DNA from: Rufibacter latericius
GTDB lineage: Bacteria > Bacteroidota > Bacteroidia > Cytophagales > Hymenobacteraceae
Length of the DNA: 64,000 bases
Direction of reading: 5' to 3'
NCBI RefSeq assembly: GCF_003721515.1
Contig: NZ_RJJD01000001.1
Span: 558,001 to 622,000 of the forward strand
The notes beneath the pieces were generated by a model that worked only from the letters and a program-made list of their open reading frames with translations, had not been told where the DNA came from and did not search any database. Position numbers and translations under genes: made by a program. Shown piece by piece: positions 35,727 through 64,000 of the stretch (position 1 is its first letter; each line of letters starts with the position of its first letter).

Positions 35727-37664
35727 TTAAAACTCCATTACAAAACCACCGTTGGGTTTAAGGGTGACAGAATATTTCCCATCGGCAGGGAGTTTAACTG
35801 ATTTCTGTTGCAGAGAGGTTTTATCTGCCGTGTCGGTAATAAGGTTAGCCGTTTTCTTAGCCAGAAATGAAAGATCCAGAGTAAGGGTCTTCTCTTGTAG
35901 CTCGCCATTGATGCCAGCCACGTACCAGCGGTTGTTTCCTTTTCTGGCCATGACTACTGATTTTCCGGGGTACCCTTCAATAAATTTGGAGTCTTCCCAA
36001 ACCGCAGGCACTTCTTTCAAGAAATCCTGCACAAAAGTAGGTACCTGCGCCATGCCGGTGGGTGTCTCCACGTAGTGCTGAATGCCGGACGTAAATAGAA
36101 CCGACAAGGCAGTCTCAAACCCTTTGGTCGTTTTCCGTTGCACCTTGCCCGGAATCTCTGACAAGTTAAGCGGCGTAAAATCCATGGGATCAAAGACGTT
36201 GCGCGTGAAAGGAAGCATGGTGGCATGGGCCGCCTGTTCATCTGCGTTGGGTTGCTCAAAGGTCACAAACTCAAATCCTTTGATGGATTCCATGGTCATG
36301 AGGTTGGGGTAGGTACGCTGCCAGCCGCGGGGCAAGGTGCAGCCATGGAAATTCACCAACAACTGGTAGTCGGCGGCGTCTTTCAGAATGTCCAGGTAAT
36401 ACTGCATCACGCTTTGGCCATCGCCCCCGAAGAAATCTATTTTCACGCCTTTGATGCCCATCTGCTGCAGGCGGGCGAACTCTTTGCGTCTGGCCTCCGG
36501 GGTTACCAGTGCGCCTTTGGGTGTATAGGGCGTAGTGTTCCAGGTGCCGGAGGAATTGTACCAGAGGATAAGCCCCACATTTTTGGTTTTGGCGTAATCT
36601 GCCAGTTCCTTAATCCGGTCATACCCGATTTTGGTGTCCCAGTTCACATCTATCAGACAGTACTCCCATTTCATTTTGGCAGAATAATCAATAAACCGCT
36701 TCTGCACGTCATACACAATGGAATCGTCTTTCAGCAAGCCCCAGCTCCAGGATGCCTGACCAGGTTTGATAAAGGACATATCCATTTTCACCGCGGCCGG
36801 GGCCAGATCGGTCCCCATAGTAGACTCCGCGATGGTTTTGAGCGAGCCCACGGTCACCAGTCGCCAAGGCGATAACCAGGGCAACGTAGACTGCGGATTC
36901 AGGACATTGCCCGGATATTTTTCCTGTTCCTGCGGAAAACCCACCTGGTACTCCCCTTTGGGGGCATTCTGGCGCAACCGGGTACCGCAGTAGCTTCCGT
37001 CCATGCCAGTCTCCGAGAGCAGCACCCAGGTATCGCCGGTCTGGAACAAGGCCGGGTAAACCCAACCCGCTTTGAGAGGCGAAGGAGTACCCACCGGCAC
37101 GCCTTTCAGGTAATGTTCCTCGTAAGACGGATTGGTTTGCGACCAGCCCGTCTTGGCATCAGACATGGGCTGCATCCAGGCTTTCGCGTCTTGTTTGAGA
37201 CGGAAAGAAGTGACCTCTTCTTTTATCATTTTCACGTCTTTGGAGGTACCCGGAAAGTAATACCGGAACGCCACCCCGTCATTGGACACCTGAAAGATAA
37301 TGTCCATTTTCTCGCCGTTGGCTCCCTGCAGATGGGCCGTTTTCCGGTTGGCCAGATAGGTGTTTTTCTTTCTTTTCGAGGTCAGGATTTCATAAGAGTC
37401 TTTGACTTTCTCAAGTTTAGAAAAGTCCAGCAAAGTCAGGTTCTGGGACAAATCAACGTCTTCCCGCACCACGCCTAACTTTGAATCCTGCAGCGCCACG
37501 GTTTGCCCGTGCTGTACCCGGTAAAAAGGCTGCCGGTTCTGGAGCCAAAAGCTGACGGTTATTTTGTTATCTGGACTTACCACCTCCATTACGTTACTGA
37601 GTTGCCCGAAGGCAGCAGCAGTACTCATGCAAAGGCAGAAAAGAAACGCCACGAATAGTTTCAT
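35727..37664 (-). CDS. GH97 family alpha-glycosidase (retaining alpha-galactosidase-like)
   Basis: About 645 residues. The open frame reaches 37733, but the ATG at 37664 begins a clean Sec signal ('MKLFVAFLFCLCMSTAAAFG'). It has the GH97 N-terminal beta-sandwich ('VVSPDNKITVSFWLQNRQPFYRVQHG', about 28-270) and a TIM barrel with 'GVKIDFFGGDGQ', where Asp is the expected nucleophile of retaining GH97 members, and 'MESIKGFE', with the acid/base Glu. Inverting SusB-like members use glutamates instead, so an alpha-galactosidase or beta-L-arabinopyranosidase role is more likely than alpha-glucosidase. This fits terminal residues on arabinogalactan. It is the last gene of the minus-strand PUL. Confidence 0.9.
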   Translation of the reverse strand: MKLFVAFLFCLCMSTAAAFGQLSNVMEVVSPDNKITVSFWLQNRQPFYRVQHGQTVALQDSKLGVVREDVDLSQNLTLLDFSKLEKVKDSYEILTSKRKKNTYLANRKTAHLQGANGEKMDIIFQVSNDGVAFRYYFPGTSKDVKMIKEEVTSFRLKQDAKAWMQPMSDAKTGWSQTNPSYEEHYLKGVPVGTPSPLKAGWVYPALFQTGDTWVLLSETGMDGSYCGTRLRQNAPKGEYQVGFPQEQEKYPGNVLNPQSTLPWLSPWRLVTVGSLKTIAESTMGTDLAPAAVKMDMSFIKPGQASWSWGLLKDDSIVYDVQKRFIDYSAKMKWEYCLIDVNWDTKIGYDRIKELADYAKTKNVGLILWYNSSGTWNTTPYTPKGALVTPEARRKEFARLQQMGIKGVKIDFFGGDGQSVMQYYLDILKDAADYQLLVNFHGCTLPRGWQRTYPNLMTMESIKGFEFVTFEQPNADEQAAHATMLPFTRNVFDPMDFTPLNLSEIPGKVQRKTTKGFETALSVLFTSGIQHYVETPTGMAQVPTFVQDFLKEVPAVWEDSKFIEGYPGKSVVMARKGNNRWYVAGINGELQEKTLTLDLSFLAKKTANLITDTADKTSLQQKSVKLPADGKYSVTLKPNGGFVMEF

Positions 37665-37713
37665 AGAACAAGGGATAAATTGAGCAGAAAGGTTTGATGT
37701 TGGTATTGGTGAA

Positions 37714-37763
37714 GTTTCCTGTTTTGGGGCCATTTTTTGTAAAACAGCCCCAAAACAGGAAAC
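37714..37763. repeat. Recurring intergenic palindrome copy between GH97 and GH51
   Basis: Outer arms of 17 nt pair exactly (37714-37730 with 37747-37763); inner bases are imperfect. A second, weaker copy lies at 37819-37860. Confidence 0.8.
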
Positions 37764-37881: not shown

Positions 37882-40497
37882 TTACTTTCTGGAAAACTTC
37901 AGGCGGATAATGGTGCAGGAGTAAGCCGGCAACTCCGTGTTTGAAAGATCGGCTAACGCCATAGTGGTTTCCGCTGGCTTCAGGAGCTTGTCAGTGGGGT
38001 TTCCCTGCAGCACGGTTCTGGTGGCCTTGTCGCCGAAGGAACCTAATTCCTTCAGGTCCACCGAGGAGGTGACGGCCACTGGCAGCAGGTTCACCATTTT
38101 CAGGATCACATCCTTGCTCTTAGGGTCACGCACCACCGAGACGGCCACCCGCTTGTTCACCGCCTCCTGGGTGTTGGACAGGCTCACGGTGCTGGGCAGG
38201 TACTCGCTGCCGGCGTTCTGGCCGAAGAGTTTCTGCACCTCGTATCCCACGGTGGGCTTTACCTCGGTGTTGTTGAAGTAGATCAGGTCGGGGTTCCATT
38301 GGGTGTGGCCTTCTTTGGCCAGCAGCGGCGCGTAGGAAGTCATGTGCACAACATCGCCGTTGCGCTCCACCGAGGTCAGGTACAGGGCCTCAGAAAGGGC
38401 GGTTTCCAGGTTGTTAGGGCGGCCGGGCAAATGGGCCGCGTACTCGCCCAGATAGACTTTTGACTTGTTCCGGTCATAACGGTCATAGTAGTCCTGGTTG
38501 TGGATGAACCAGCCCGGCGGTTGGTAATAGTGCTCATCCACCATGGCCAGGCCCATCTTATCGGCGATGTCCCAGCCCTCCACGTAGTCGGTGCCCTCAG
38601 AGAAAGGCCCCACCGTGCCGATGACCGTGATCTCGGGGTGCTTTTCCTTCAGCGCCTTGTAGATCATCGCGAAGCGCTCCTCAAATACATCGGTGATGAG
38701 GTCCTCGTTGCCTACGCCAATGTATTTCAGGTTGAACGGTTTGGGGTGGCCCGCCTCGGCCCGTTTCTTGCCCCACTTGGTGGTCACGTCGCCGTTGGCG
38801 TACTCCACCAGGTCCAGGACATCCTGCACGTACTCGTCCATTTCGCTCATCGGGATGCCGCCCTGTTGCCCACCGCCTTGGGGACTGCTGCCGGAGTTCT
38901 GGCAAGGCACGCCCGCCGCGACCACCGGCACCGGCTGGGCCCCGATGTCCTCGCAGAACTGGAAGTACTCAAAGTAGCCCAAACCCACGGACTGATGGTA
39001 GCCCCACAGGTTACGCTGCGGCTTGCGGGCCTCCACCGGCCCGATGGTATTCTTCCAGTGGTAGATGTTCTCCAGGCCGTCTCCGTGGGCCACACAGCCT
39101 CCGGGGAACCGAACAAAACGCGGCTTCAGATCAGCGATGGTCTTCGCCAGATCAGCGCGCAGGCCGTTTTTCCGGCCTTTGAAGGTCTGCTGGGGAAACA
39201 AAGAGACCATATCCAGGGCTAGCTTCCCTTCGGTGAGTGGTTGCAGTTCCAGGCGCGCATCGGCGGCGGTCTTGTTGGGCGTCAGCACTGCGGTGAGTTT
39301 CTTCCAATTGCCCGCAGGAGCGTTTAGGGTAGTTTTTGCCAAAACACCCTCTTTTTCACTGATCAGGCGCACTTCTAGTTTGGAGCTCTTTCCTTGTAAA
39401 TGCCTTGTAAACAGGGAGAGGTTATAACGTTGCCCTTTCTGGACGGAGATGCCATCAAACCCGGCGTTTACCAATGAGGCCCCCGGCGTTTTGGCCTCCA
39501 GCACCGCGTAATGCGGATTGTTGGGGTGCACTGGGGCGGCGGTCTCCACGGTGAACGAAGTGTTCTCGCCTTTCAGGCTCCAGGAGTGGGTGTTGGTCCA
39601 GCTTTTATCGTGACCTTCCTTGTCGCTAGGCGAGTACTCAAACCCGCGGTTCTGCACCAGCTCGGCATACAGTCCACCGTCGGCTGCGTAGTTCAGGTCC
39701 TCAAAGAAGACGCCTACCAACAGATCGCTGATGGGTTTTGCCTTGGCCGCCTCTATAGTGATTTTGGCCTCCACTGGTTTCAGCCCGGCAAAACGCTGGG
39801 CATCCTGCGCCATGGTCTCACTGTACTGGCTGCTTTTGAACTGTTTCTGCTCATAGGTTTTTACCAGCCTGTCCACGTCCGTCCAGGCCACCCGGTGCAC
39901 CTGCCCGGTTGCGTTGCCCTCCGGCAAGGTCACCTTTTGGCTGTTGTCCCGGTACTGGGCCGCCGGTACTTCCGTAGCCGGCGAAAAGGCATTGAAGTCT
40001 TTGGTGGTGACCCGGTAATACTTACCCGAAGCGTCTGCGTACGTGATGGCGTAGTTCCCCGATTGAGCCTCATACTGGACCACAGGCCGCAGCACATGGG
40101 CACTTCCTTTCACCATCGGGTAGCTCTGCCGTCCCCAATACACCAGGTCCGGGGAGGCGCTGTGCGCGAAAAGCGGTTCCCGATCGTTCAGGCTCCACAC
40201 GGCCTGCCAAACCCCGTTGGGACCGCGGAACACATAGGGCGTGTGCATCCGCTTCTCGGCGCCCCACCTGCCGTAGTCTGACCGCACGAAGCCGTACTCG
40301 CTCCCGATGCTGAACCATTTCTCCTTGTCGCGGCTCCAGGCAAAGTGCAGCCCGTTCCGGCCGCCGTTTTTCTCGGTGCCGTAAGAGAAAAGGTACACCG
40401 AGTCTGGTTCGTTCACCGTTTTCCCGGGGCCGGCCAGGGCGGTCTGAAACATAACCGCCCCCGCGTAAAGCCCCGACAGCGCTAAAAATTTCTTCAT
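37882..40497 (-). CDS. GH51 alpha-L-arabinofuranosidase with extra N-terminal propeller-like domain
   Basis: About 871 residues. A TTG codon lies at 40506, but the ATG at 40497 starts the signal peptide ('MKKFLALSGLYAGAV'). Residues about 30-225 look like a partial GH43-type beta-propeller domain ('MHTPYVFRGPNGVWQAVWSLNDREPLFAHSASPDLVYW'). A CBM-like jelly roll comes next, then the GH51 catalytic barrel ('RFPGGCVAHGD'). Acid/base is the Glu in 'YIGVGNEDL', nucleophile the Glu in 'VYLGEYAAH'. It would release arabinofuranose from arabinogalactan or arabinan. The N-terminal domain's role is unknown; it may be a binding module or a vestigial catalytic unit. Upstream neighbour: tandem GH43 lipoprotein. 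Confidence 0.9.
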   Translation of the reverse strand: MKKFLALSGLYAGAVMFQTALAGPGKTVNEPDSVYLFSYGTEKNGGRNGLHFAWSRDKEKWFSIGSEYGFVRSDYGRWGAEKRMHTPYVFRGPNGVWQAVWSLNDREPLFAHSASPDLVYWGRQSYPMVKGSAHVLRPVVQYEAQSGNYAITYADASGKYYRVTTKDFNAFSPATEVPAAQYRDNSQKVTLPEGNATGQVHRVAWTDVDRLVKTYEQKQFKSSQYSETMAQDAQRFAGLKPVEAKITIEAAKAKPISDLLVGVFFEDLNYAADGGLYAELVQNRGFEYSPSDKEGHDKSWTNTHSWSLKGENTSFTVETAAPVHPNNPHYAVLEAKTPGASLVNAGFDGISVQKGQRYNLSLFTRHLQGKSSKLEVRLISEKEGVLAKTTLNAPAGNWKKLTAVLTPNKTAADARLELQPLTEGKLALDMVSLFPQQTFKGRKNGLRADLAKTIADLKPRFVRFPGGCVAHGDGLENIYHWKNTIGPVEARKPQRNLWGYHQSVGLGYFEYFQFCEDIGAQPVPVVAAGVPCQNSGSSPQGGGQQGGIPMSEMDEYVQDVLDLVEYANGDVTTKWGKKRAEAGHPKPFNLKYIGVGNEDLITDVFEERFAMIYKALKEKHPEITVIGTVGPFSEGTDYVEGWDIADKMGLAMVDEHYYQPPGWFIHNQDYYDRYDRNKSKVYLGEYAAHLPGRPNNLETALSEALYLTSVERNGDVVHMTSYAPLLAKEGHTQWNPDLIYFNNTEVKPTVGYEVQKLFGQNAGSEYLPSTVSLSNTQEAVNKRVAVSVVRDPKSKDVILKMVNLLPVAVTSSVDLKELGSFGDKATRTVLQGNPTDKLLKPAETTMALADLSNTELPAYSCTIIRLKFSRK

Positions 40498-40526
40498 AAT
40501 GATCAACAGGTAATTATTGAGGAAAA

Positions 40527-40594: not shown

Positions 40595-42802
40595 TTACCG
40601 CAGTGGTTTGAGACCTTCATGCGTAGGCTTCACCTGCTTGATGGTACCGTCTGCATTAAACTCCATCTTGTCAATGGCCACCTCCCGGTTGAAGCCGGCG
40701 GCATCGCCCATGGTAATGCCTTTGGGGTAGTTGAACCGATGGTAGACAATGTACCACTCGTCTTTGCCGGGCACCTGAATCACGGAATTATGCCCGGTAC
40801 CGTAGATCCCGGACGCGGGGTCTTTGGCGATGACCAGGTTATTAGCGGGAACCTTGATCTTGCCCAACGGCGAGGTGGAAGTGCCGTAGCGTACCCGATA
40901 ATTCTCGCTGCGCGTGTCATCCTCTGACCACAGGAAGTAGTAGATGCCTTTGCGGAAGAGCACGTGGGTTCCTTCTCTAAAGGTGTTATCCGGGGTAAGG
41001 ACTTTGATGGTCTCGGGTTTGATAGATACCATATCGGCGTTCAGCTCGGCGCCGGCCATGTAGCCGTTCCCCCAGTACAGATAACTCTTGCCGGTTTTAG
41101 GATCGGTGAACACATCAGGGTCAATCTGTTGACCGCCTTTCACGCCTGGCGGCAACTGGTCTACCAGCGGTTTCCCGGAATCCACGAAAGGACCGGTTGG
41201 GCTATCCGATACGGCTACGCCTACCTTCTGGGCCGCCGTGAAGTAATAGAAGTACTTATACTGGCCGTTTACTTTCTTCTCGATGATGGCCGGAGCCCAG
41301 GCGTTTCTTTTTCCCCAACTCACGTCTTTGGGCAAATCCAGGATCACGCCTTCGTCTTTCCAGTTCACCAGGTCCGGGGAAGAAAAGGTCTTGAAATAGG
41401 TCCCCGACCAGCCGTTGAACCCGTCGCTGGTAGGATAAATGTAGTATTTGCCGGTCTTTTCTGCGTAAATGATGTCTGGGTCTGCGAAGTAGCCATCCAG
41501 CACCGGGTTATGGTCTTCGCGGGCAGTAGCGGCAAAAGTCTGGGGTTGTTGCCCTTTGATCTCCACGGTGTAGTTTACGGCTCCTTTTGAAAAATCGGCC
41601 GCAGAAGGGGAAACGGTCACGCCCGGGAAGGACTCGAACTGCGGTTTGAAGGAAGCCAGGTTTGTACCGGGTTTTACCGGAAGATGCAGGGTTCTTTTAA
41701 CAGAGTCTAGGGCCACGTTGAACCGTTTCAGCTCGGGCGCTTTGGCGGTAAGCAGCACTTCTTCTGCCGTCAGCCATTTAGAAACCAACGCCTCGTATTC
41801 TCTGGAGGTGATGGGAATGACGGTGCCGTGGCGCGGATGAAAGTTCATGGACACCTCCGTGTCCACTACGGTAAAGTTCTGCAGATCGGTGGTTTTGGTG
41901 AACTGGTAGCGGCCTTTGGTGTACACATCGTACATCAGGATGTAGCCGGGTTCATTGATGAGTTTGAACACGCCCGCGCCTTCCACGGGGTCTTTGGTCT
42001 GCTGTACATACTTGTCCTGCAAGACGTAGCCGCCGGTCAGTTTATCAGACACCGCGATCTTGATGCCCGATCCCTCGCCTTCGGTCTTGAAGAACAGGTG
42101 GTATTTGCCGTCTTTCAGCACGATGTCACCGTCAATGGCCGCGCCGTTGGTGGGGCTGAAAAACAGTTGCTTGGGCTCACTCTCCAAGTCGGTGAAATCC
42201 TGATTGGCGTAGGCGTAGTAGATCTTATCGGGGTCATCGCCGTGCTTCATGGAGAAGTAGACCATGTACTTTTTGGCCTCGGGGTCATAGATGGTCTGCG
42301 GGGCCCACACGCGCAGCAGTTTCTCGTTCCCGGCAAATCTCTTCTGGATGTTCACCACACTGGAGGTCCAGTTGATGAGGTCCGTGGATTTGAGCAAGAC
42401 CATGGCCCGGTTAGAGCTCCAGCCGTTCGCCGATACCATGTCAGTCACCACCATGTAAAAGGTTTTGCCGTCGGCCCTTCGCAGAATATGCGGATCGCGC
42501 ACGCCACCGGTGGAGCTGATCTGGGCTGAAGAGATGATGGGCTTGTTGCCATTAAGCGCCCGGTAATGATAGCCGTCTGGGCTCACTGCAAACCGGATGG
42601 CCTCTTCGCTTTTGTCATTGCCGGTGAAGTAGGTAAAGAGATACCCGCTGTACTTCTCCTGCGGCGCTTTCATTTCGGCCCCCGTTTGGTCAGACCCGGA
42701 TTTTTTTGCCACCTGCGGAGAGCAGGCTGAGCCCAATACCCCGATGGCCAGGCAAAAGGCCGCGCAGTTTTTCGCCAGGTTTCTGGAAAGTTGTTTGTTC
42801 AT
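40595..42802 (-). CDS. Tandem GH43 lipoprotein (two five-bladed propellers)
   Basis: A 735-residue lipoprotein (Cys27 in 'LGSAC'). Two GH43-type propellers are visible, and each seems to keep the D/D/E triad: domain 1 (about 50-350) with 'GVRDPHIL', 'AIDGDIVLK' and 'VEGAGVFK'; domain 2 (about 425-725) with 'GYFADPDIIY', 'QIDPDVF' and 'REGTHVLF'. A short linker domain separates them. GH43 enzymes act on arabinofuranosides, xylosides or galactans. Next to GH51 in this locus, an arabinofuranosidase or arabinanase role is likely. Two complete active sites in one chain are less usual and could mean two specificities. It starts with ATG 157 nt after the GH35 stop. Confidence 0.88.
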   Translation of the reverse strand: MNKQLSRNLAKNCAAFCLAIGVLGSACSPQVAKKSGSDQTGAEMKAPQEKYSGYLFTYFTGNDKSEEAIRFAVSPDGYHYRALNGNKPIISSAQISSTGGVRDPHILRRADGKTFYMVVTDMVSANGWSSNRAMVLLKSTDLINWTSSVVNIQKRFAGNEKLLRVWAPQTIYDPEAKKYMVYFSMKHGDDPDKIYYAYANQDFTDLESEPKQLFFSPTNGAAIDGDIVLKDGKYHLFFKTEGEGSGIKIAVSDKLTGGYVLQDKYVQQTKDPVEGAGVFKLINEPGYILMYDVYTKGRYQFTKTTDLQNFTVVDTEVSMNFHPRHGTVIPITSREYEALVSKWLTAEEVLLTAKAPELKRFNVALDSVKRTLHLPVKPGTNLASFKPQFESFPGVTVSPSAADFSKGAVNYTVEIKGQQPQTFAATAREDHNPVLDGYFADPDIIYAEKTGKYYIYPTSDGFNGWSGTYFKTFSSPDLVNWKDEGVILDLPKDVSWGKRNAWAPAIIEKKVNGQYKYFYYFTAAQKVGVAVSDSPTGPFVDSGKPLVDQLPPGVKGGQQIDPDVFTDPKTGKSYLYWGNGYMAGAELNADMVSIKPETIKVLTPDNTFREGTHVLFRKGIYYFLWSEDDTRSENYRVRYGTSTSPLGKIKVPANNLVIAKDPASGIYGTGHNSVIQVPGKDEWYIVYHRFNYPKGITMGDAAGFNREVAIDKMEFNADGTIKQVKPTHEGLKPLR

Positions 42803-45313: not shown

Positions 45314-45548
45314 TATTACTGGTAAGTTAATGGTAAAGGGTAAGCTTTTGATGCCGGCATCTTCCTCCTCTTTTACCCGAGGGAAAAGTACCTGCCGCAT
45401 CTGAATATATCTGGGGGATACTTATTGGTGGCTGTTACATCGGTTCAATCTTTATGGCGCATAAAATAATCTGCTATTCAGGTTTATGTATCTTTTGGAA
45501 AAACACCCCTAAAAAAGGCATGAACCTCCCGTCCTGCAGCGTTCTTTC

Positions 45549-46370
45549 CTAGTCTAATCGCTTGATCTTGATATCCTTGAATTCAATTCCCTGGCCTTCG
45601 CTCTGGAGGCCTATGTAGCCCTGTGTCAGGCGCTTGCCATCCTGCTTTACTGTGGGGTCATAGTTGTTGGCCACTCCTCCCCCGATCTGCGGACGGGTAT
45701 ACTGCAGCACCGTGTCACCGTTGATGAGGTGCGTCACCAAGGAATCTCCCAATACAATCAGTTCGGCTTTCACCCACTGATCCCACGCATAGGTAGCCGA
45801 GGAAGAGTTGATGCAGTGCCGGTCATCTATTTTGTCTTCGTACACCACATCAGTACCCGGGGAGCACATGTTTCCGGTGGGGCGGGGTTTGCCGTCTCCG
45901 GCGTCCGCCAGCAACTGAAACTCCACGGAAATTGGCCAATCCTGCTCTTTTAAGATGGATTCTGGGCTCTGGGAATGGAACATAATGCCGCTGTTCCGAT
46001 AGGTGTAGGAAGGCGCATCTTTCAACCATTGGTCGGTGAAGCGGTACTCCCATTTCAAATGGAAAGAAGAGAACGGGGCTTTGTAAAACAGATGACCGTA
46101 CCGTTCATTGAAGGTTCCGTAGTTATCATAATTCACCTGCAACGCGCCGTCTTTCACTCTAAACGTCTGCGCGTAATTGTCTCCTACCTCATGATGATGA
46201 ATTTTGACGATCCAATCCTTCAGGTCCTTGCCGTTGAAGAGCGTTTGCCAGCCGCCTCCCTGCTTTGCTGTTTCTTTGATAGTGCTGGGCGAACAGGAAA
46301 TCACCACCAGCAATGTGACAGCCAGCAGAATAGCCTTGCAATGCACTCGTATGTTTTTAATATGCTTCAT
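45549..46370 (-). CDS. DUF1080 (3-keto-disaccharide hydrolase-type) lipoprotein
   Basis: About 273 residues. The frame opens at 46418, but the ATG at 46370 starts the lipoprotein signal, giving Cys26 ('VVISC'). The rest is a single DUF1080 concanavalin-like jelly roll: 'GWQTLFNGKDLKDWIVKIHHHEVGDNYAQTFRVKDGALQVNYDNYG', 'FHLKWEYRF', 'NSGIMFHSQSP', 'WPISVEFQLLADAG' and 'GYIGLQSEGQGIEFKDIKIKRLD'. Some DUF1080 proteins hydrolyse 3-keto-glycosides; others may only bind sugars. In this PUL it might help process oxidised or capped side chains (inference). It ends 235 nt upstream of the GH35 start and begins 62 nt after the GH16 stop. Confidence 0.85.
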   Translation of the reverse strand: MKHIKNIRVHCKAILLAVTLLVVISCSPSTIKETAKQGGGWQTLFNGKDLKDWIVKIHHHEVGDNYAQTFRVKDGALQVNYDNYGTFNERYGHLFYKAPFSSFHLKWEYRFTDQWLKDAPSYTYRNSGIMFHSQSPESILKEQDWPISVEFQLLADAGDGKPRPTGNMCSPGTDVVYEDKIDDRHCINSSSATYAWDQWVKAELIVLGDSLVTHLINGDTVLQYTRPQIGGGVANNYDPTVKQDGKRLTQGYIGLQSEGQGIEFKDIKIKRLD

Positions 46371-46432
46371 CCTGATTTTTTCTAAAACACGCTTAAACCT
46401 TATTCCACTAGCCTCCAAATCTCGGAGCCGCC

Positions 46433-47308
46433 CTATTTTTTCTGATACACCCGCACGTAATCCACCTCATATCTTTTAGGGAATGGTGTCCCCGAAGGGT
46501 TTCCCCCATTGCCGCCAATCGCCAGGTTCAACAGGAGGTAATGCGGCTGGTGAAAGGGATTGAAGCCATCGGGGTTCAGGGTTTTGGTTAAGTCAATCTC
46601 GTTGAGCAGTTCGCCGTCTAAGTAGAGCTTTATGTATTCAGTTGTCCAGTCCATTTTCCAGACATGGAACTTGCAGGGCCACTGGGCATCCTTCTCCAGG
46701 AAATTCGAAAACGGGATTCTGGCGTCATCCCAGACCGCTTTCATTTTATCATCTGACCATGCCGCATTGGCTAGGATGGTAGGACGGTTTCCCACCCGGT
46801 AGAATTCCATCAGGTCTATTTCTCCGCCTGCGGGCCATTCCTTAGCAACTCCCAAAGTCCAGATGGCGGGCCACATACCCATCGCGGTGTCTATTCGTGC
46901 CCTTACTTCAAAAACCCCGTACTGAAAGGACTTCTTGTTTAGGGTATGGAGGCTGGCCGAGGTATATTCAGCAAACTCACGGTGACGTCTCCAGTCTTTA
47001 TGGGTAGCCTCGAACCTGGGGTTTTCCAGGTTCTCGCGCCTGCCTTCAATCACCAGAACTCCTTTGGAACAGGTGGCATTCTGCGGCTGGTACCACTGCA
47101 GTTCACGGTTGCGCACAAACCCGAGTTCGTAGCCCCAGCTAGCGCTATCAGGCTTCCCATTGGCGTTGAACTCATCGTGCCAGACCAGAGAATAACCTGG
47201 CAGTTCCGTGGGAGGCTGAGCATCGGGTTGGTAGGCAAATTGCCGCCTGCTGCAAGCAAACTGCCCCAGCATTAGTAGGCATAAAAGAAGCCCGTACCAT
47301 TTGTTCAT
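46433..47308 (-). CDS. GH16 family surface lipoprotein (candidate endo-beta-1,3-galactanase)
   Basis: A 291-residue lipoprotein (Cys19 in 'QFAC') consisting of one GH16 domain. The catalytic signature is E163-I-D165-L-M-E168 in 'AGGEIDLMEFY', and the end 'RYEVDYVRVYQKK' closes the jelly roll. Surface-exposed GH16 endo-enzymes in known arabinogalactan loci cut the beta-1,3-galactan backbone, and that is the likely role here. Beta-glucanase activity is the alternative. It differs from the GH16 of the first locus, which is not lipidated and has an extra C-terminal domain. Order: between DUF2264 (upstream) and DUF1080. Confidence 0.88.
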   Translation of the reverse strand: MNKWYGLLLCLLMLGQFACSRRQFAYQPDAQPPTELPGYSLVWHDEFNANGKPDSASWGYELGFVRNRELQWYQPQNATCSKGVLVIEGRRENLENPRFEATHKDWRRHREFAEYTSASLHTLNKKSFQYGVFEVRARIDTAMGMWPAIWTLGVAKEWPAGGEIDLMEFYRVGNRPTILANAAWSDDKMKAVWDDARIPFSNFLEKDAQWPCKFHVWKMDWTTEYIKLYLDGELLNEIDLTKTLNPDGFNPFHQPHYLLLNLAIGGNGGNPSGTPFPKRYEVDYVRVYQKK

Positions 47309-52232: not shown

Positions 52233-56689
<4,457 letters not shown>

Positions 56690-56714: not shown

Positions 56715-59192
56715 TTATTTCACCGATGCTGAACTGGATCCCCCGGCCATCCCATTTTGGGTCTGTTTTACCGAAAACTCCACCGTTTGAGGCGTCAGGC
56801 CGGGAGATTGGATCGTTACCCTGACTTTGCCGGGTTTCTGGCCTGCCTGAACGTAAGCCAGCAGTTTCCCGCGCAGCACTTTCCGCTTCTCAGACTGATA
56901 GTTCTCAAGGCCCGAATGGCTGCCGTTTTCCAGACCAAGGATTTTGGCGGGTCCTTCTACCGTGAAGGTCATCTCGTTTTCGGCGCCGTACACCAGGTTG
57001 CCCTTACTGTCTACCACGTTGATCTCCACATGCGCCACTCCTTTGCCAGCCAGGGTTTTCTTGTCGGCTTTGGCCTGGATGGCGGCGGGCGCAGCGGCGG
57101 TAACCAACACGTCACGGCTTACCTCTTTTCCGTTTTTATAGGCTTTGGCCATCAGTTCCCCGGGCGCGTAGACCAAGTCCCAATAGAGTGCGCGTTGAGG
57201 GCTCTGGGCCAGAGACTTTCTGCCCAGCGATTTGCCGTTCAGGAAGAGTTCTGCTTCATCGGCGTTCGTAAAGCAGCTTACCCGCACGCTATCGTTGGCT
57301 TTCCAGTTCCAGGTGGGGTCTGCCCTCCGGTGGCTCCAGATACCATTGTCCTGGTTCTTAGGTACCGGAGAAGCCCCGATGTACACCATGGGTTTGTCTG
57401 ACCACAGGCTTTGCCGGAAGAAATACTCGGGCTTCTTGAAGCCGGCCAGATCCATTAAGCCAGCACCGTTGCTGCGGCTGGGCCATTTGCCGGCCTCACC
57501 CATGTAGTCAATGCCGGTCCAGAGGTACTGCGCCGAAATATAGTCATTCGTGTCCACGGCGGCCCAGGCGTTCAGGCGCATGCCGTTCTCGCTGCCGTAG
57601 ATGACTCTGTCGGGGTATTTGGCGTGGTCCTCGGGGTAGCGGTGCTCCTGGTAATTGTAGCCCACGATATCCAGTACTTTGGGGTAATCGGTGAAGTTGG
57701 ACATCACCACACCGGCCAGGGCCGCGGTGATGGGCCGGGAAGTATCGTGCTTTTTCGCGACCTCCACCAGATGCCTGGACAGCTCGCTTAAGCGGCTGGC
57801 GGGCGGGTTGTTGGGCTGGTAGCCTTTGCCGTAGATCTGCGGGTTGTTGCCCGTGTTTAGGACCTCGTGGGAATAAGGGTCATTGGGGTAATCAATCTCG
57901 TTCCCGATGCTCCACATGATGATGGAAGGACGGTTGCGGTTCCGCAGGATCATGTCTGCCAGGTCTCTATCGGCCCATTCCTTGAAATGCTCATGATAGC
58001 CGTCTTTGCCCGGGGTGCCTACGTTCCAGCCAGCAATCCATTTGTTTTTACCGGTTTCCCACTCGTCAAAGGCCTCGTCCTGCACCAGGAGGCCCAGTTT
58101 GTCGCACAGGTCATAGAGGTAATCGGCGTGCGGGTTGTGACTCATCCGCAGGGAATTAACGCCACCTTCTTTCAGGGTGATGAGTCTTCTTTCCCACACT
58201 TCCTCCGGCACGGCGGTACCCAAGGCGCCGGCATCGTCATGGATGCAGACACCTTTCAGTTTCATGTTTTTCCCGTTCAAGAAGAAGCCTTTGTTTGCAT
58301 CAAAGGCAATGCTTCTGAAGCCCACCTGCTCCACGGTTTCATCGGTCTTTTTGCCGTTCACAAACAAAGACACCCGCAACTGGTACAAAGTAGGCTGTTC
58401 CACCGACCAAAGCTTAGGATTGTTCACCTGGAAGGACAAGGCAGCCTCAGCTTCTTTCCCGCCGGTTACGCTCACCTGCTTCTGCGTCTGGTTTACCACT
58501 TTGCCTCCCTTGTCCAGCAGCTCGGCTTTCACCTGGACATCCGCTGCTTTACCGGAAGCATTGGTCACCGATACTTTCACGTTGGACAAAGCCTTGGCCG
58601 CCGAGACCTCCGGGGTGGTGAAGGCCACTCCCCACAGGTTGATGTGCACGGGCTCTACTGTCACGAGGTAGACATTCCGGTTGATGCCCGAGCCAGTATA
58701 CCACCTAGAATCGGCGAACTGGGTGTGGTCCACTTTCACCGCCACCACGTTATTGCCGTTCTTGTTCAGGTGCTTGGTGATCTCGTACTGGAAGGGCGTG
58801 AAGCCGTTGGGTCTTTTGCCCAAGGCATGTCCGTTGATCCAGACTTCACTGTTCTTGTAAACCCCGTCAAAGTAGAGGAACAGCTGTTTGTTCTGCTGGG
58901 CAGCGGGCACTTTGAAGGTCTTTCGGTACCAGCCTATCCCGCCGGGCAAATACCCGGTGGCGCTGGCCCATTCCTGGCTGAAAGGCCCTTCAATGCTCCA
59001 GTCATGCGGCAAATCCAGGCTGCGCCATTGCGCATCAGCGAAACTAATGCCTTCGGCTTTGGCTACATCGCCTTTGTGGAATTTCCATTTATCGTTGAAA
59101 AGCGCTTTGGTGCGCGGCTGTTGCGCGAATACCTGAGAGGTATAGCTAAGCAACAACGTGGTGAAGAAGACGAGTAAAATTCTATTTTTCAT
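56715..59192 (-). CDS. GH2 family glycosidase (beta-galactosidase/glucuronidase), DUF4982 type
   Basis: An 825-residue protein with a Sec signal (about 1-23, 'QVFAQ'). Jelly roll ('WRSLDLPHDWSIEGPF', 'GGIGWYRKTF'), Ig domain and TIM barrel ('KGVCIHDDAGALGTAVPEEVWERRL', 'SHNPHADYLYDLCDKLGLLVQDEAFDEWETGKN') are in the usual order. Acid/base Glu is in 'MWSIGNEIDYP', nucleophile Glu in 'VIYGSENGMR'. After it comes a DUF4982/Ig-like tail, typical of GH2 enzymes of plant-glycan PULs. Substrate could be beta-galactoside or beta-glucuronide; the motifs do not decide. It follows the GH30 gene by 115 nt and precedes the longer GH2 by 127 nt. Confidence 0.9.
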   Translation of the reverse strand: MKNRILLVFFTTLLLSYTSQVFAQQPRTKALFNDKWKFHKGDVAKAEGISFADAQWRSLDLPHDWSIEGPFSQEWASATGYLPGGIGWYRKTFKVPAAQQNKQLFLYFDGVYKNSEVWINGHALGKRPNGFTPFQYEITKHLNKNGNNVVAVKVDHTQFADSRWYTGSGINRNVYLVTVEPVHINLWGVAFTTPEVSAAKALSNVKVSVTNASGKAADVQVKAELLDKGGKVVNQTQKQVSVTGGKEAEAALSFQVNNPKLWSVEQPTLYQLRVSLFVNGKKTDETVEQVGFRSIAFDANKGFFLNGKNMKLKGVCIHDDAGALGTAVPEEVWERRLITLKEGGVNSLRMSHNPHADYLYDLCDKLGLLVQDEAFDEWETGKNKWIAGWNVGTPGKDGYHEHFKEWADRDLADMILRNRNRPSIIMWSIGNEIDYPNDPYSHEVLNTGNNPQIYGKGYQPNNPPASRLSELSRHLVEVAKKHDTSRPITAALAGVVMSNFTDYPKVLDIVGYNYQEHRYPEDHAKYPDRVIYGSENGMRLNAWAAVDTNDYISAQYLWTGIDYMGEAGKWPSRSNGAGLMDLAGFKKPEYFFRQSLWSDKPMVYIGASPVPKNQDNGIWSHRRADPTWNWKANDSVRVSCFTNADEAELFLNGKSLGRKSLAQSPQRALYWDLVYAPGELMAKAYKNGKEVSRDVLVTAAAPAAIQAKADKKTLAGKGVAHVEINVVDSKGNLVYGAENEMTFTVEGPAKILGLENGSHSGLENYQSEKRKVLRGKLLAYVQAGQKPGKVRVTIQSPGLTPQTVEFSVKQTQNGMAGGSSSASVK

Positions 59193-59307: not shown

Positions 59308-60915
59308 TCAAAGCTGCACATCGGCCACGAAGGTGACGATGGAGCGGGGCGCCAGGGTGATGTCTTCCTGTTTTTCCAGGGTGGCACCTGGCTTCAGGCT
59401 CTCCTTGTCAGAAGTGACGTAGGGCTTGATGTTACGGAGGGTGGCCCCCTTCAATTGCATGTTCAACTGAACAGGGGAAATGCTGGAGTTGATGGCAACT
59501 AAGACAAGCTTCTTCTGCTCAGAGTCCAGGTAGGCTGAGGCCAGCAAAGCATCATTTCCTTTGTTATTCCCAGTTACCTGTAGGTCCACGCGTTCGGCTC
59601 CCGGACGGATAAATCGGCTATAATTGCCCAGTGCCCACAGCATCTTGCTGTCATAGTAATGGCCGTCGGTTTTATTCTGGTCAATGTAAATGAGGCCGTC
59701 TTTGTAGTTGTAGGGCGAGATGGCCAGCCACCATTGCCAGGCCGTGGCATTGGCTACTACCAAATCATTGTGGATGACGCGGGCCAGGTAAATGGCCGGA
59801 TCAATTCCTAAAGAGCGCTTGTTGCCGTCTATCTCGCCGGCGTTGTCTCCCAGGATGCAGTACTCAGACTGCCAGAACTCCAGACCGGGCACTTCAGCCA
59901 CTTTGCTGGCCAGTTGTTTCCGGCTGGCTACGGCCTGGTCATGTGGAGAGGTGGTAAAGTAGCTGTGCCCGGAGATCACCTTGCTCACGTGGGGCAAGTC
60001 TGCCACGTAATGCGGGGAGCTTTTGGAGAAGAAGGCATCGATCTGGTTTCCTCTATTGGGTTTATCGGCTTGCTGGTATAGGTAGTCTATTTTGCCGGCT
60101 TCCGCGATGTCTATTTTGGTGGGTAGGTTTCTTCTGGCCAGGGAGGTGTTCAGCGCCCGGACAATGCCGGCTACATCCTCATTCATGAAGGGGGTTCCCT
60201 CCTGCCCGCCGTCGCTCCAGTCCCACTGCGGCTCATTCACCGGACTGATGTAGTTCATAGTAATGCCATGCACCCGTTGTACACCCTGGATCACATCGGC
60301 GAGGTAATCTGAAAAGGCTTCGTATTTGTTAGGGGCAAGATTGGGGGTACCGTTGGAGGCAAATGCCTTTCCGTTGGTAGTAAGGTTCACGGTGGGGCTG
60401 TTTGGGAAAGCCAGGAATTTATTTACCCCACGGGTCTGGGCGGCTTTCAGGAACCAGACCTGGCCGGCTTGGCGCTGCCAGTTATAGCTGCCGTCACTGT
60501 CCAGGAAAGACTCGGCGCGGCGCCACTCATCTTTAATCCCGCTCTGTTCGCCCTGCTGGGTACTGCCCGCGCCCACGTTGAACCGCCACAGGGACAAACC
60601 TATCCCTTTGGGTTGGCCATTGGCATCGGAGTCTGTACTGAAAAGCAGGTCTGCGATGGCGTTTTTTTTGTTTTCGGGCCAATTCCCCACAAACTGGCAA
60701 GACCAAGCGTCTGAGGCCGCAAAGTTGTCTATCTTCTGAAATTTCTTTCCGACATCTATGGTGGCCGTCACTTTCACCGAGGAATCGGTGGAGGGGTCAT
60801 CTCCCGCCCCAGTAGAACCAGCGTCGCTACAGCCCAACAAAGTGAAGAGGGTTACCAAGAAACAAGACCTAACCAACACAGATTCTTTTAGAACCCCAGG
60901 TAATGATTTAAGCAT
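59308..60915 (-). CDS. GH30 lipoprotein, candidate beta-1,6-galactanase
   Basis: About 535 residues. The frame opens at 60966, but the ATG at 60915 starts the lipoprotein signal, with Cys29 ('TLLGC'). It has the GH30 TIM barrel plus side beta-domain. Early on, 'QKIDNFAASDAWSCQFVGNWPENKK' and 'LSLWRFNVGAGS' match the glycan-cleft start. The acid/base Glu is in 'YISPVNEPQWDWSDGG', the nucleophile Glu in 'LEFWQSEYCIL'. The C-terminal domain is beta-rich ('LLASAYLDSEQKKLVLVAINSS'). GH30 subfamily members in arabinogalactan loci cut beta-1,6-galactan side chains; glucanase and xylanase are known alternatives. It is the first enzyme after susCD, and its lipid anchor places it at the surface. Confidence 0.87.
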   Translation of the reverse strand: MLKSLPGVLKESVLVRSCFLVTLFTLLGCSDAGSTGAGDDPSTDSSVKVTATIDVGKKFQKIDNFAASDAWSCQFVGNWPENKKNAIADLLFSTDSDANGQPKGIGLSLWRFNVGAGSTQQGEQSGIKDEWRRAESFLDSDGSYNWQRQAGQVWFLKAAQTRGVNKFLAFPNSPTVNLTTNGKAFASNGTPNLAPNKYEAFSDYLADVIQGVQRVHGITMNYISPVNEPQWDWSDGGQEGTPFMNEDVAGIVRALNTSLARRNLPTKIDIAEAGKIDYLYQQADKPNRGNQIDAFFSKSSPHYVADLPHVSKVISGHSYFTTSPHDQAVASRKQLASKVAEVPGLEFWQSEYCILGDNAGEIDGNKRSLGIDPAIYLARVIHNDLVVANATAWQWWLAISPYNYKDGLIYIDQNKTDGHYYDSKMLWALGNYSRFIRPGAERVDLQVTGNNKGNDALLASAYLDSEQKKLVLVAINSSISPVQLNMQLKGATLRNIKPYVTSDKESLKPGATLEKQEDITLAPRSIVTFVADVQL

Positions 60916-61001
60916 AAAAAATTCCTTTTGGTTTTCACCATGAGAGAAAAGACTCCCATGGCGCAACAGATGTGCACCATGGGAGATCCATGACCTAAGG
61001 C

Positions 61002-62687
61002 TTAGTACCCCGGGTTCTGCTCTAGCTTACCACCGGTTGCCTGTATTTCGGCTCTAGGAATTGGCAGCCAGTAATGTTTGCTCTGGAAGCTACGTCCTTC
61101 CAGGGCTACCTTGCGGGTATAGACAAAGTTGGTTCCCTGTTTGGTGATCTCTATTCCGTAGGCAGGCACGTTCTCAGTCTGCTCCGCGATCATCCAGCGA
61201 CGTACATCATAAAAACGGTGCTCCTCAAAGGCTAATTCCACCTGACGTTCGTGTCTGATACGTTCGCGCATCTCAGCTTGGGTAAGTCCTGGGGGAAGTG
61301 GAGGCAAGTTTACCGCTGTCCGTTGTCTGATGCGATTAACGGCCTCATACACCGTGGCGTCTGGTCCAACGGCCTCGTTCTGGGCTTCTGCGTAGTTCAA
61401 CAGGATCTCGGCAAAGCGGAAATAAATCCAAGGCTGTCTGCCGGCTACGTTCCAAGGGTTCTGGATGGGGTTGGTGTCATCCATGAACTTGCGGAGATAA
61501 TAGCCAGTCTGGGAGGTATTCCAGTTAGAGGGGCCATCCTTGCTGTCTTTTCCGCCAGGGGTGAAGGTCTCCAATGCTCTTCCTCTGTACTCGGCCCCGT
61601 TATACAGGATGGTGGCGTAAAAACGAGGGTCTCGGTTGGCGTAAGGGTTTTGCGGATCGAATTCAGAGGTGGGGTCTGTGATCATCTTCCCGTTCGCCAT
61701 TTCGTAGGCATCCACCAGGTTCTGCAGAGGGGCATTGCCTCCCCAGCCATCGTATCCATTCGGTCCGTTAGCAATCTCCAGAGCCGTGTGGCGCGAGTTC
61801 AGGTTATAGAACCGGGCGAAGATGATCTCGGGGCTGTTTCCTTCCTCGGCAATAAACATATTAGCATACTGCGGATCAAGGCTGTACTCATTCAAGGCCA
61901 TCACATCCTGGGCCGCACTGGCCGCCGCTTGCCAGGTAATCTGGCTTCCGTTCTGTTTGTAGAGCGGGCTGGCAGCATACAGCATCAGTCTTGACCTAAG
62001 GGCCAGAGCCGCACCTTTGGTAGCCCTCCCCTTTTGCCAGCTAGAGCTGTAGTCAACCGGCAAGATGGCAGCAGCTTCCTCTAGCTGGGTATTGACATAT
62101 TGCAGACCTTCCTGGATAGTGGAGCGGACAAAAAGGGCGGGGTCAGTGAAGTCTTCTCCTAATTGGGCTACCTTATCACCTACCAGAACTACCCTACCGT
62201 AATTCCGGATCAGGTCATGGTACCGGAATGCCCGGATGAATTTCAACTCGGCCACTAATAGGTTTTTGTGTGATTGGCTCATAGGAACCTTCTCAATGTT
62301 GGCCAAGGCGTAGTTCACTTCCCGGATGCTTCGGTAGCTTCTTCCCCAAAGAGTCCCGGTAATGCCCGTGTTCTCCGGGGCCAGCTGTCCGCGCTGCACC
62401 AGCCAGGTATTGTCATCGCTCCGGTAGATGGATTCATCGGTCAGGGACGACCACAGGGCGTATTCCCAGCCTCTCCCGAACCCGGGCGGAACGCCATCCC
62501 CTTCTTTGTCCTGAAGCCTTGCCCCCAGATAACGGTTGATGACAAAGGACTCAAAAAGCACCGAATCCCCGATGATGGCTTCGTCTGATACCCTGTCTGT
62601 AGGCGTTACTTCCAGGAAATCTTCTTTACATGAGCTCATGCACATTGCCATTCCTAGGGCAAATGCAGTAAATATTTTCAGTTTCAT
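61002..62687 (-). CDS. SusD/RagB-family lipoprotein of the arabinogalactan-type PUL
   Basis: About 561 residues. The frame opens at 62714, but the ATG at 62687 begins the lipoprotein signal ('MKLKIFTAFALGMAMCMSSC', Cys20). SusD helices are clear: 'VAELKFIRAFRYHDLIRNYGRVVLVGD' near 145-170, 'GAALALRSRLMLYAASPLY', 'WIYFRFAEILLNYAEAQNEAVG' and 'RIRHERQVELAFEEHRFYDVRRWMIAEQTE', with the common '...LEQNPGY' C terminus. It follows susC by 14 nt. Binding of a beta-galactan or arabinogalactan oligosaccharide is inferred from the downstream enzymes. No SusE/F-type third protein is in the window between it and GH30. Confidence 0.95.
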   Translation of the reverse strand: MKLKIFTAFALGMAMCMSSCKEDFLEVTPTDRVSDEAIIGDSVLFESFVINRYLGARLQDKEGDGVPPGFGRGWEYALWSSLTDESIYRSDDNTWLVQRGQLAPENTGITGTLWGRSYRSIREVNYALANIEKVPMSQSHKNLLVAELKFIRAFRYHDLIRNYGRVVLVGDKVAQLGEDFTDPALFVRSTIQEGLQYVNTQLEEAAAILPVDYSSSWQKGRATKGAALALRSRLMLYAASPLYKQNGSQITWQAAASAAQDVMALNEYSLDPQYANMFIAEEGNSPEIIFARFYNLNSRHTALEIANGPNGYDGWGGNAPLQNLVDAYEMANGKMITDPTSEFDPQNPYANRDPRFYATILYNGAEYRGRALETFTPGGKDSKDGPSNWNTSQTGYYLRKFMDDTNPIQNPWNVAGRQPWIYFRFAEILLNYAEAQNEAVGPDATVYEAVNRIRQRTAVNLPPLPPGLTQAEMRERIRHERQVELAFEEHRFYDVRRWMIAEQTENVPAYGIEITKQGTNFVYTRKVALEGRSFQSKHYWLPIPRAEIQATGGKLEQNPGY

Positions 62688-62700
62688 GGTATGCTTGGTA

Positions 62701-64000
62701 TTAGAATTTGACATTTACCCCCAGGTTGAGAATTCTCTGCTGCGGGTAGAATTGAGCGTTTCCTGAGCTGGTTTCCGGGTCAAAATCTTTCACTTTGGTG
62801 AAAGTGGCCAGGTTGAAGCCGTTGGCAAACACTCTTACATTCTCAATCTTGATTCTTGACAAAAGCTGAGAAGGAAGGTTGTAGCCCAACTCCACGTTCT
62901 TCAATCTCAAGAAAGCCGTGTTATACAACCAGAAGTCACTTGGGAAAAGGCCGCCGCTCACTGCAGAGCCGGTACGGGTGTCTACGCGTGGGTAAGAACC
63001 GTTTGGATTAGTTGGGCTCCATCTGTTGTCGGCCCAGGTGCTGAAGAAGTTTCCACTTAATCCTACATCTGGTAACACGTATTGTCTCACCTTAGCCTGG
63101 CCCTGGAAGAGGATAGAAAGGTCAAAGCCTTTGTACTCAGCGCCCAGGTTTAACCCGTACATGATCTGTGGGATGTTGCCCAAGTCAGTTCTAACCTGGT
63201 CATCAGCGGTTATTTTACCGTCTTTGTTGTAATCCTCATAGATCAGATCGCCCAGCTTTGCCCCAGATGGATGTGGGTATCTGTCCAGGTCTTCCTGGGT
63301 GCGGTAGATTCCAATGGAACGGTACAGCAAGGATGTATTTATTGGCCCACCAGTCTCTCTTTGATAATCAAGGATACTTGGCGCCTCGTCTTTGAATACA
63401 ATCTTATTTTTGGCGTAAGTGATGTTCCCGGAGATGTTGTATTTGAAATCACCAGCACTTTTGTCAAAGCCGAGGGTAGCCTCAATACCATTGTTATCTA
63501 CCCTCCCAATGTTCTCAGAAGGCACCAGTGCATCAGAACCAAAAGGGTTGACAATACCAGTTACATTAGGCACCGATGCGTTTCTGTAGGCCAAGAGATG
63601 TTTCCGTTTCTGCTGGAAATAGATAAACTCGAAGTTGAAGTTGTTCAGGAAGATACCGCTTACGCCAACATCTGTTTTCTGTGCTACCTCCCAAGTGATG
63701 CTAGGGTTAGCTAATTTCACCAGGTTCAGACCTGGGTATACCTCACCACCAATCACGTACCGGTTATCAAAGGTATAGTTGTTCATGAACTGGTTGGAAC
63801 CTACGTTATCATTCCCCAATTCACCATAAGAAGCGCGGAGTTTCAACTCGTTCATGAAAGGCAGGCTGTTCTTAAACCATCCTTCTTCAGAGATCCTCCA
63901 GCCCACCGAAACACCTGGGAAGTAGCCCCAGCGGCTGTCATTAGGGAAGTTTGAGGTTCCGTCGGCCCGCATCTGTACTTCTGCCAGATACTTTTCCTTG
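62701..64000 (-). CDS. SusC/RagA-family TonB-dependent receptor, 3' part
   Basis: The frame is open from the right edge of the window to a stop at 62701, giving about 432 C-terminal barrel residues; a 'KEKYLAEVQMRADGTSNF' strand marks the entry. Other SusC marks are 'WGYFPGVSVGWRISEEGWFK', 'LKLRASYGELGNDNVG', 'ITWEVAQKTDVGV', 'YEDYNKDGKITADDQV' and the terminal '...NLGVNVKF'. The plug and N terminus lie beyond 64000. It forms the import complex with the SusD 14 nt downstream and heads the minus-strand PUL. The promoter and any linked regulator are outside the window. Confidence 0.95.
   Translation of the reverse strand, partial: KEKYLAEVQMRADGTSNFPNDSRWGYFPGVSVGWRISEEGWFKNSLPFMNELKLRASYGELGNDNVGSNQFMNNYTFDNRYVIGGEVYPGLNLVKLANPSITWEVAQKTDVGVSGIFLNNFNFEFIYFQQKRKHLLAYRNASVPNVTGIVNPFGSDALVPSENIGRVDNNGIEATLGFDKSAGDFKYNISGNITYAKNKIVFKDEAPSILDYQRETGGPINTSLLYRSIGIYRTQEDLDRYPHPSGAKLGDLIYEDYNKDGKITADDQVRTDLGNIPQIMYGLNLGAEYKGFDLSILFQGQAKVRQYVLPDVGLSGNFFSTWADNRWSPTNPNGSYPRVDTRTGSAVSGGLFPSDFWLYNTAFLRLKNVELGYNLPSQLLSRIKIENVRVFANGFNLATFTKVKDFDPETSSGNAQFYPQQRILNLGVNVKF

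Follow-up and report, generated by a model that had tools for sequence, protein, structure and literature searches.

In Bacteroides plebeius, wine arabinogalactan protein (AGP) is targeted by polysaccharide utilization locus (PUL) 5, a SusC-bearing locus that combines a GH145 lyase, a GH105 enzyme and a GH43_24 enzyme, and a further locus with sulfatases, PUL13, is also used (PMC8406133). In GH145 enzymes, His48 is at the center of a posterior hydrolase site, whereas His90, Tyr143 and Arg333 belong to an anterior lyase site. Rhamnose is freed from wine AGP, and not from AGP of gum arabic, by two members that lack His48; for one of them lyase action was shown, and GH105 cuts the product (PMC8406133). 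The same work treats GH145 and GH43_24, a subfamily that contains exo-beta-1,3-galactanases only, as AGP-type. In Maribacter sp. MAR_2009_72, PUL 8 has a tandem GH43 (GH43_19+GH43_34) beside GH51, a GH105 pair and SusC/D (PMC11036162). Proteins of the DUF2264 family, filed as GH154, include glucuronate dehydratases, namely BT_3677 and a B. caccae protein from the chondroitin locus PUL25, where the dehydratase primes terminal glucuronic acid (GlcA) for an unsaturated uronyl hydrolase (PMC12269599). Here, we analyzed a 64,000-nucleotide stretch of DNA from Rufibacter latericius (bases 558,001-622,000 of contig C10 in a genome of 5.67 Mb; hereafter the window), which carries a cluster of glycan-degradation genes. 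We consider it likely that this cluster is a PUL for type II arabinogalactan, the glycan of AGPs, in Rufibacter, and that its acidic caps would be removed by way of unsaturated GlcA.

The cluster consists of 14 complete genes between 35,727 and 62,714, all on the minus strand, and a 15th gene, susC, which leaves the window at 64,000 and runs on to the equivalent of 65,784. According to the open reading frame (ORF) list and the Pfam and NCBIfam matches, the products are, in order of transcription, SusC, SusD, GH30, GH2 (GalA/GalB-like), GH2 (LacZ), GH43, BNR_4 and GH105, followed by DUF2264, GH16, DUF1080, GH35, a tandem GH43, GH51 and GH97. The initial annotation of the window had listed these families on one strand with short gaps, and the family calls agree with it, the gaps among the 15 genes being -14 to 156 bases. 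A gene for a hybrid two-component regulator (L001:5993-10171) is located 208 bases upstream of susC. The genome contains 81 TonB plug-domain matches, so the SusC/SusD pair alone is unremarkable; its adjacency to carbohydrate-active enzyme genes and the linked regulator are features of AGP-type PULs.

Compared with B. plebeius PUL5, the cluster likewise has GH145-, GH105- and GH43_24-type genes with SusC, and both GH145 proteins are without the posterior histidine; it differs by GH30, GH16, GH154 and DUF1080, which are unnamed in the main text of PMC8406133, and no sulfatase was found among its assigned genes (Pfam/NCBIfam), in contrast to PUL13. With PULAGPS of B. thetaiotaomicron, which has BT3686 and to which BT_3677 presumably belongs, it shares homologues of GH145 and of the long form of DUF2264. 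Unlike the protein here, BtGH145 retains H48 and with it the hydrolase site (PMC8406133). Maribacter PUL 8 resembles the cluster in the genes named above and in an arabinogalactan-induced uronate operon ahead of it, which includes a 5-dehydro-4-deoxy-glucuronate isomerase, whereas GH145, GH154, GH16 and GH30 are absent from the main text of PMC11036162. B. caccae PUL25 also pairs a dehydratase with an unsaturated uronyl hydrolase, but it targets chondroitin and has GH88 and PL35 in place of GH105 and GH145 (PMC12269599). The initial annotation had not recognized the combination and order of families from described loci. Large parts of the combination are in fact known; a literature search found no link of DUF1080 with arabinogalactan, nor of the Pfam name with polysaccharide utilization.

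In the proposed mechanism, the lipid-anchored GH30 and GH16 enzymes would probably nick the glycan at the cell surface, SusC/SusD would import the fragments, and the hybrid regulator would probably sense them. No dedicated beta-glucuronidase would take part in removing the acidic caps. L-rhamnose (L-Rha)-alpha-1,4-GlcA would be split by the GH145-type lyase, which leaves unsaturated GlcA, the DUF2264 protein would dehydrate uncapped GlcA to the same residue, GH105 would release it from both routes, and KduI/KduD, the genes of which lie upstream of the regulator gene at a distance of ~5 kb, could carry it onward. Family membership, catalytic residues, gene order and conservation were read from the sequence; activities, cellular placement, regulation and substrate were assigned by way of characterized relatives. 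The parts of the mechanism have been published (a GH145 lyase acting together with GH105, and dehydratase activity in GH154), and a joint lyase and dehydratase reading for AGP was not seen in the papers matched by a literature search (PMC11036162, PMC12269599 and PMC11784079). The cluster represents a compact, complete-looking arabinogalactan enzyme set outside Bacteroides, the genus in whose species such loci have been worked out, and it lends itself to a stringent biochemical test of the removal of acidic caps by elimination and dehydration alone.

The initial annotation had named the BNR_4 and DUF2264 proteins without interpreting them; the former is probably a rhamnose-glucuronate lyase, the latter probably a glucuronate dehydratase. 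The BNR_4 protein, the nearest named relatives of which are from Rufibacter sediminis (90% identity) and R. hautae (85%), matched four solved GH145 chains (5muk, 4irt, 5mum, 5mvh) with 488-510 bits (5muk 510, 5mvh 488), which rules out a generic or sialidase-like protein. Its score against the NCBIfam BT3686 model was 637 bits, below the cut-off of 700, and its homology to BT3686/BACCELL_00856 extends over the propeller. The lyase triad of BT3686 (H90, Y143, R333) is kept, and H48 is replaced by phenylalanine (F68), so hydrolase activity is not claimed for this protein. Among 45 GH145 loci, 38 of them outside Rufibacter, the triad is kept in every case and H48 in 10, which makes the lyase site the constant feature. 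No two of these 45 proteins are ≥97% identical. L084, L086 and L088 were dropped as duplicates of L003, L004 and L005, and a planctomycete locus with a short match of 30% identity (L024) was left out. Neighbor counts are lower bounds, since five of the 45 stretches do not reach 15 kb. The GH145 matches in G387 (L030), G336 (L037) and G227 (L041) were listed with one stop codon each, in G387 at the protein end.

The DUF2264 protein encoded at 47,434 and a second, shorter DUF2264 protein encoded upstream of the regulator gene each keep nine of the ten active-site residues that were mutated in the B. caccae dehydratase (E74, R78, N176, N177, W178, F181, Y229, R285, Y289, Y354), N176 being replaced by serine. 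DUF2264 is scarce, with 26 copies in 19 of the 27 genomes that were chosen for a clear GH145 (eight genomes with only weak GH145 matches were excluded). Fifteen of the 26 copies lie ≤10 kb from GH145, against 0.10 expected at random, and outside Rufibacter 6 of 13 against 0.05, the expectation being that of simple random placement with shared descent disregarded. GH105 occurs near GH145 in 19 of the 45 loci, and GH105 together with DUF2264 in 16 (9/38 outside Rufibacter).

GlcA might instead be hydrolyzed classically in the same AGP locus, with the DUF2264 protein (in line with the original description of GH154) or the GH2 enzyme at 56,715 acting as beta-glucuronidase and GH145 as rhamnosidase. 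The GH2 does match a beta-glucuronidase model, albeit more weakly than GalA (260 vs 610 bits). Reading DUF2264 as a plain glucuronidase was demoted to this alternative after the findings in PMC12269599, where BT_3677 dehydrates methyl-glucuronide, the family structures are without hydrolase-like active-site geometry, and a dehydratase role is proposed family-wide. Classical hydrolysis would also leave GH105 without an obvious substrate, and the GH145 protein is without the hydrolase histidine. We therefore regard it as unlikely and retain elimination and dehydration as the favored route.

Type II arabinogalactan, which the initial annotation had named as the target, is well supported by the combination of GH145, GH43_24-type, GH105, GH35 and GH51/GH43 genes and by galK-galT in relatives. 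The GH43 protein at 52,233 matched 6eug, which we take to be a member of GH43_24, with 471 bits, and the galactan 1,3-beta-galactosidases 7bys and 5flw scored lower in the same list; the exo-beta-1,3-galactanase type proposed earlier is thus borne out at the level of sequence. In R. hautae, galK and galT (recognized by eye from the sequences) are inserted between DUF2264 and GH16 (L004:14798-17080), and G400 has them at the same place (L085:14083-16366). In G250 (L116), a genome outside the class, relatives of both are located ~3 kb away from the LacZ gene in a related cluster. Together with the GH43_24-type enzyme, these genes are strong pointers to galactan. The target could also be rhamnogalacturonan I pectin or another rhamnose- or uronate-bearing glycan with incidental arabinogalactan side chains. 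GH105 enzymes act on unsaturated rhamnogalacturonan too (PMC11036162), and DUF4861, KduI/KduD, LacI and GH127 are encoded upstream. Among the 15 assigned genes, however, there is no pectin lyase, GH28, GH53, GH78 or GH106, and GH43_24 and GH145 are AGP-type (PMC8406133). We consider such a target improbable, and arabinogalactan remains the preferred substrate.

The endo-enzymes that would open the glycan at the surface were described as lipid-anchored in the initial annotation. Lipoboxes, judged by eye and by sequence pattern, are clear for GH30 (LLGC), DUF1080 (VISC) and SusD. The one of GH16 is weaker (FAC; not caught by the pattern), and the R. hautae GH16 relative has LWSC. The anchoring is thus probable for GH30 and, less firmly, for GH16, and both are candidate surface endo-galactanases. 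When compared with solved structures only, GH30 scored 288 bits against 3clw and 42.5 bits against 24td, a Streptomyces endo-1,6-galactanase of GH30_5. 3clw is an uncharacterized GH30_4 protein, the cleft of which resembles GH30_5 on the glycone side and differs on the aglycone side (PMC13431644). Membership in GH30_5 was therefore ruled out, and endo-beta-1,6-galactanase activity is no more than a possibility. Relatives of GH16 occur in 10 of the 45 GH145 loci, and outside Rufibacter in 7 of 38 (six at 51-62% identity, one at 26%). This distribution fits a beta-1,3-galactanase but does not prove it.

Four of 16 Rufibacter genomes carry this kind of GH30, and eight carry GH145. The other three GH30 genomes keep the order SusD, GH30, GH2, GH2, GH145, GH105, DUF2264, DUF1080, GH35 and tandem GH43, and such a recurrence is not due to chance. 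GH16 is present in the clusters of two of these three close relatives, the terminal GH51 in one and GH97 in none. GH145, GH105 and DUF2264 stay side by side even in the four genomes that have GH145 without this GH30 (G395, G399, G407, G409), a pattern suggestive of a movable cassette. We see an even chance that these three genes form a transferable module that strips all terminal GlcA from arabinogalactan without a glucuronidase, across different Bacteroidota transporters and endo-enzymes. In Rufibacter sp. XAAS-G3-1 (L005) and G399 (L090), the cassette was observed in otherwise different surroundings.

The transporter has relatives beyond the genus as well. SusD proteins of 61-64% identity were found in four genomes of three other genera. 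GH30 directly follows SusD in G250 and G138 and is next but one in G099; in the fourth genome, G363, it was not seen in the stretch examined. The transporter and GH30 therefore tend to travel together. The cluster draws attention to two lipoproteins, one of GH30_4 type that is tied to its transporter in several genera, and a DUF1080 protein retained alongside GH30 in Rufibacter.

Several observations weigh against the proposed pathway. The nearest solved relative of GH30 belongs to the uncharacterized GH30_4, and the best solved matches of GH16 are 6t2n, 6xof and 6xqf (GH16, no named activity), followed by laminarinases. DUF1080 has no placed role. A pairwise alignment of DUF2264 gives methionine instead of tyrosine at the proposed dehydratase base (Tyr229); in a 27-row alignment that includes the solved chain (L018 and L068 genes entered twice each, the L013 row a fragment), a tyrosine aligns there after a two-residue loop deletion. 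An association of H48 loss with a neighboring GH105 was sought among the 45 GH145 loci and none was seen, GH105 being no commoner near H48-less (15/35) than near H48-keeping proteins (4/10). KduI was found in one of the 45 loci and KduD-like proteins in three, two of them only 30-35% identical, in stretches that span ~10 kb, which a Kdu placement as in this genome (~23 kb) would escape. The Kdu genes here adjoin DUF4861 and GH127 and may thus belong to a pectin-type operon, i.e. serve another operon; the uronate operon that precedes Maribacter PUL 8 is a precedent for their link to arabinogalactan (PMC11036162). Finally, GH43_24 is present in the cluster of only one of the three close relatives and GH16 is absent from one, which makes backbone removal less central. 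The removal of side chains and backbone described in the initial annotation holds in outline, and the conserved core appears to be directed more at capped side chains than at the backbone.

For the DUF1080 protein, a structure model from 18 sequences was obtained with a mean predicted local distance difference test (pLDDT) score of 85.7. It matched other DUF1080 structures with a TM-score of ~0.5 on its own length, including BT2157 and 3-keto-glycoside eliminase/hydratases at 19-20% identity. By predicted fold and Pfam family, the protein is accordingly 3-keto-glycoside eliminase/hydratase-like. No partner 3-dehydrogenase or other oxidoreductase is encoded in the cluster, to which the search was confined. 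This absence would suit a different reading, in which DUF1080 is an unrecognized surface endo-glycanase for galactan. The protein has a lipobox, it is kept in all four Rufibacter clusters with this GH30, and it adjoins GH16 both here and in G286 (L114), where the neighboring GH16 is 62% identical; another DUF1080 lies within the related cluster of G250. One DUF1080 protein, THTE_1561, has been termed an endo-xanthanase/lichenase (PMC9007349), an idea also raised for the same organism in PMC5673643. Against a galactan enzyme stand the predicted fold and the surroundings of close relatives. Relatives were detected in 55 of 395 genomes (E up to 1e-20), and the 20 neighborhoods used (of 30 places; the source genome and nine weak or partial places were left out) are mixed. 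Among ten neighbor proteins from nine of the 20 loci were two M42 peptidases, a GH3, a GH31 and a BNR_4 protein; none was an oxidoreductase. The galactanase reading is thus doubtful. Specificity of DUF1080 for arabinogalactan is unsupported, given the mixed neighborhoods.

The GH97 protein had been singled out in the initial annotation as a retaining-type member of the cluster. The type was confirmed, as D433 aligns with the aspartate of 3a24 (glycine in 5e1q) and so provides the catalytic residue at the BtGal97b position. The protein scored 488 bits against 5xfm, presumably an arabinopyranosidase, and 157 bits against the alpha-galactosidase 3a24. BT_3661 is named as the arabinopyranosidase in PMC10086023, with the PDB entry not given. 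Subfamily assignment thus agreed with galactan for the GH43_24-type enzyme, whereas GH30 is nearest GH30_4 and not GH30_5, and GH97 is nearest 5xfm and not the alpha-galactosidases; the initial annotation was correct along its main lines but erred on several details.

GH97 is absent from the cluster in all seven other GH145-bearing Rufibacter genomes, and a conserved place in the Rufibacter cluster was ruled out (1/8 GH145 genomes). A search of these relatives for enzymes missing from the cluster, which covered GH97 only, found proteins of 66-68% identity elsewhere (on another contig or >1 Mb off) in six of the seven and none at that cut-off in one. Within Rufibacter, GH97 is an appendage of this genome. 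Outside the genus, 3 of 38 GH145 loci have a GH97 relative nearby (27, 40 and 56% identity), so the presence of GH97 in a locus of this type has parallels. On contig C6 of G405, ~22 kb past the cluster end, a different GH97 with 30% identity was observed (L149:10178-11635).

The coordinates of the cluster and associated genes are given in Table 1. The Pfam scores were 215 bits for GH97, 451 for the GH51 catalytic domain, 256 for the tandem GH43, 391 for GH35, 138 for DUF1080, 59 for GH16, 284 for DUF2264, 310 for GH88/105, 313 for BNR_4, 68 for GH43, 325 and 90 for the GH2 TIM barrels, 556 for GH30 (PF14587) and 204 for SusD. Motifs that we take to be catalytic were seen in GH16 (EIDLME), GH30 (NEP and SEY), GH51 (GNE and GEY) and GH97 (KIDFF), and acid/base and nucleophile motifs are present in GH2 and GH35. 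Upstream of the cluster and outside the window, the regulator gene is accompanied by genes for the shorter DUF2264 protein, an extracytoplasmic function (ECF) sigma factor, DUF4861, a KduD-like short-chain dehydrogenase, KduI, LacI and GH127. No anti-sigma gene was found among the scanned ORFs around the sigma factor.

Table 1. Genes of the predicted arabinogalactan cluster and associated features (window positions unless prefixed L001)
Feature	Position	Strand	Basis
SusC/RagA TonB-dependent transporter, 3' part	62701..64000	-	TIGR04056 932 bits; whole gene L001:2701-5784, 1027 aa
SusD-like lipoprotein, putative surface glycan binding	61002..62714	-	Pfam, lipobox
GH30 lipoprotein closest to GH30_4 (3clw), probably a surface endo-enzyme for side chains (putative substrate)	59308..60966	-	
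GH2 + DUF4982, GalA/GalB-like, beta-galactosidase type	56715..59192	-	610 bits, under NCBIfam cut-off 900
GH2 LacZ-type beta-galactosidase	53432..56593	-	NF052611 1064 bits, above cut-off 999
GH43 subfamily 24 type, predicted exo-beta-1,3-galactanase	52233..53435	-	6eug 471 bits, residues 29-378
BNR_4, GH145 relative, predicted L-Rha-alpha-1,4-GlcA lyase	50818..52179	-	H110/Y163/R353 kept; F68 at hydrolase His
GH105-type (PF07470), predicted unsaturated beta-glucuronyl hydrolase	49599..50747	-	Pfam
DUF2264 long form, 682 aa, predicted glucuronate dehydratase ('GH154')	47434..49482	-	BT_3677 construct reaches residue 673
GH16 probable lipoprotein, predicted surface endo-enzyme, putative beta-1,3-galactanase	46433..47308	-	nearest solved 6t2n
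DUF1080 lipoprotein, 3-keto-glycoside eliminase/hydratase-like fold	45549..46418	-	
GH35 + C-terminal F5/8 type C domain, beta-galactosidase type	42959..45400	-	Pfam
Tandem GH43, probable lipoprotein (GSAC, by eye), alpha-L-arabinofuranosidase type	40595..42802	-	
GH51, BT_3657-like N-terminal domain + CBM4_9, alpha-L-arabinofuranosidase type	37882..40506	-	Pfam
GH97 of retaining type (D433), closest to 5xfm, putative beta-L-arabinopyranosidase/alpha-galactosidase	35727..37733	-	
Additional SusC/SusD pair, convergent with cluster, perhaps a second transporter (uncertain)	30734..35318	+	
Second DUF2264, single-domain, upstream of regulator	L001:10483-11751		353 bits to 8oi4, 314 to B. caccae dehydratase
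ECF sigma factor between second DUF2264 and DUF4861	L001:12441-13055		

The second SusC/SusD pair, the SusD of which lies ~15.5 kb from GH145, is possibly a second transporter of the system. It has the same place relative to the tandem GH43 and GH35 in G409 (SusD 84% identical) and is near a contig end in G405; beyond these two and the source genome, its SusD had no further match among the 16 Rufibacter genomes (E up to 1e-60). Elsewhere in the window, positions 25631-29254 (minus strand) encode a protein of 1207 aa with an alpha/beta-hydrolase (esterase-/lipase-like) region, immunoglobulin-like domains and a secretion-system C-terminal sorting domain. Positions 3-8746 (plus strand) hold an ORF that continues a TonB-receptor gene (plug C10:557400), more ORFs and a GH3 gene at 6479-8746, and perhaps represent another utilization locus.

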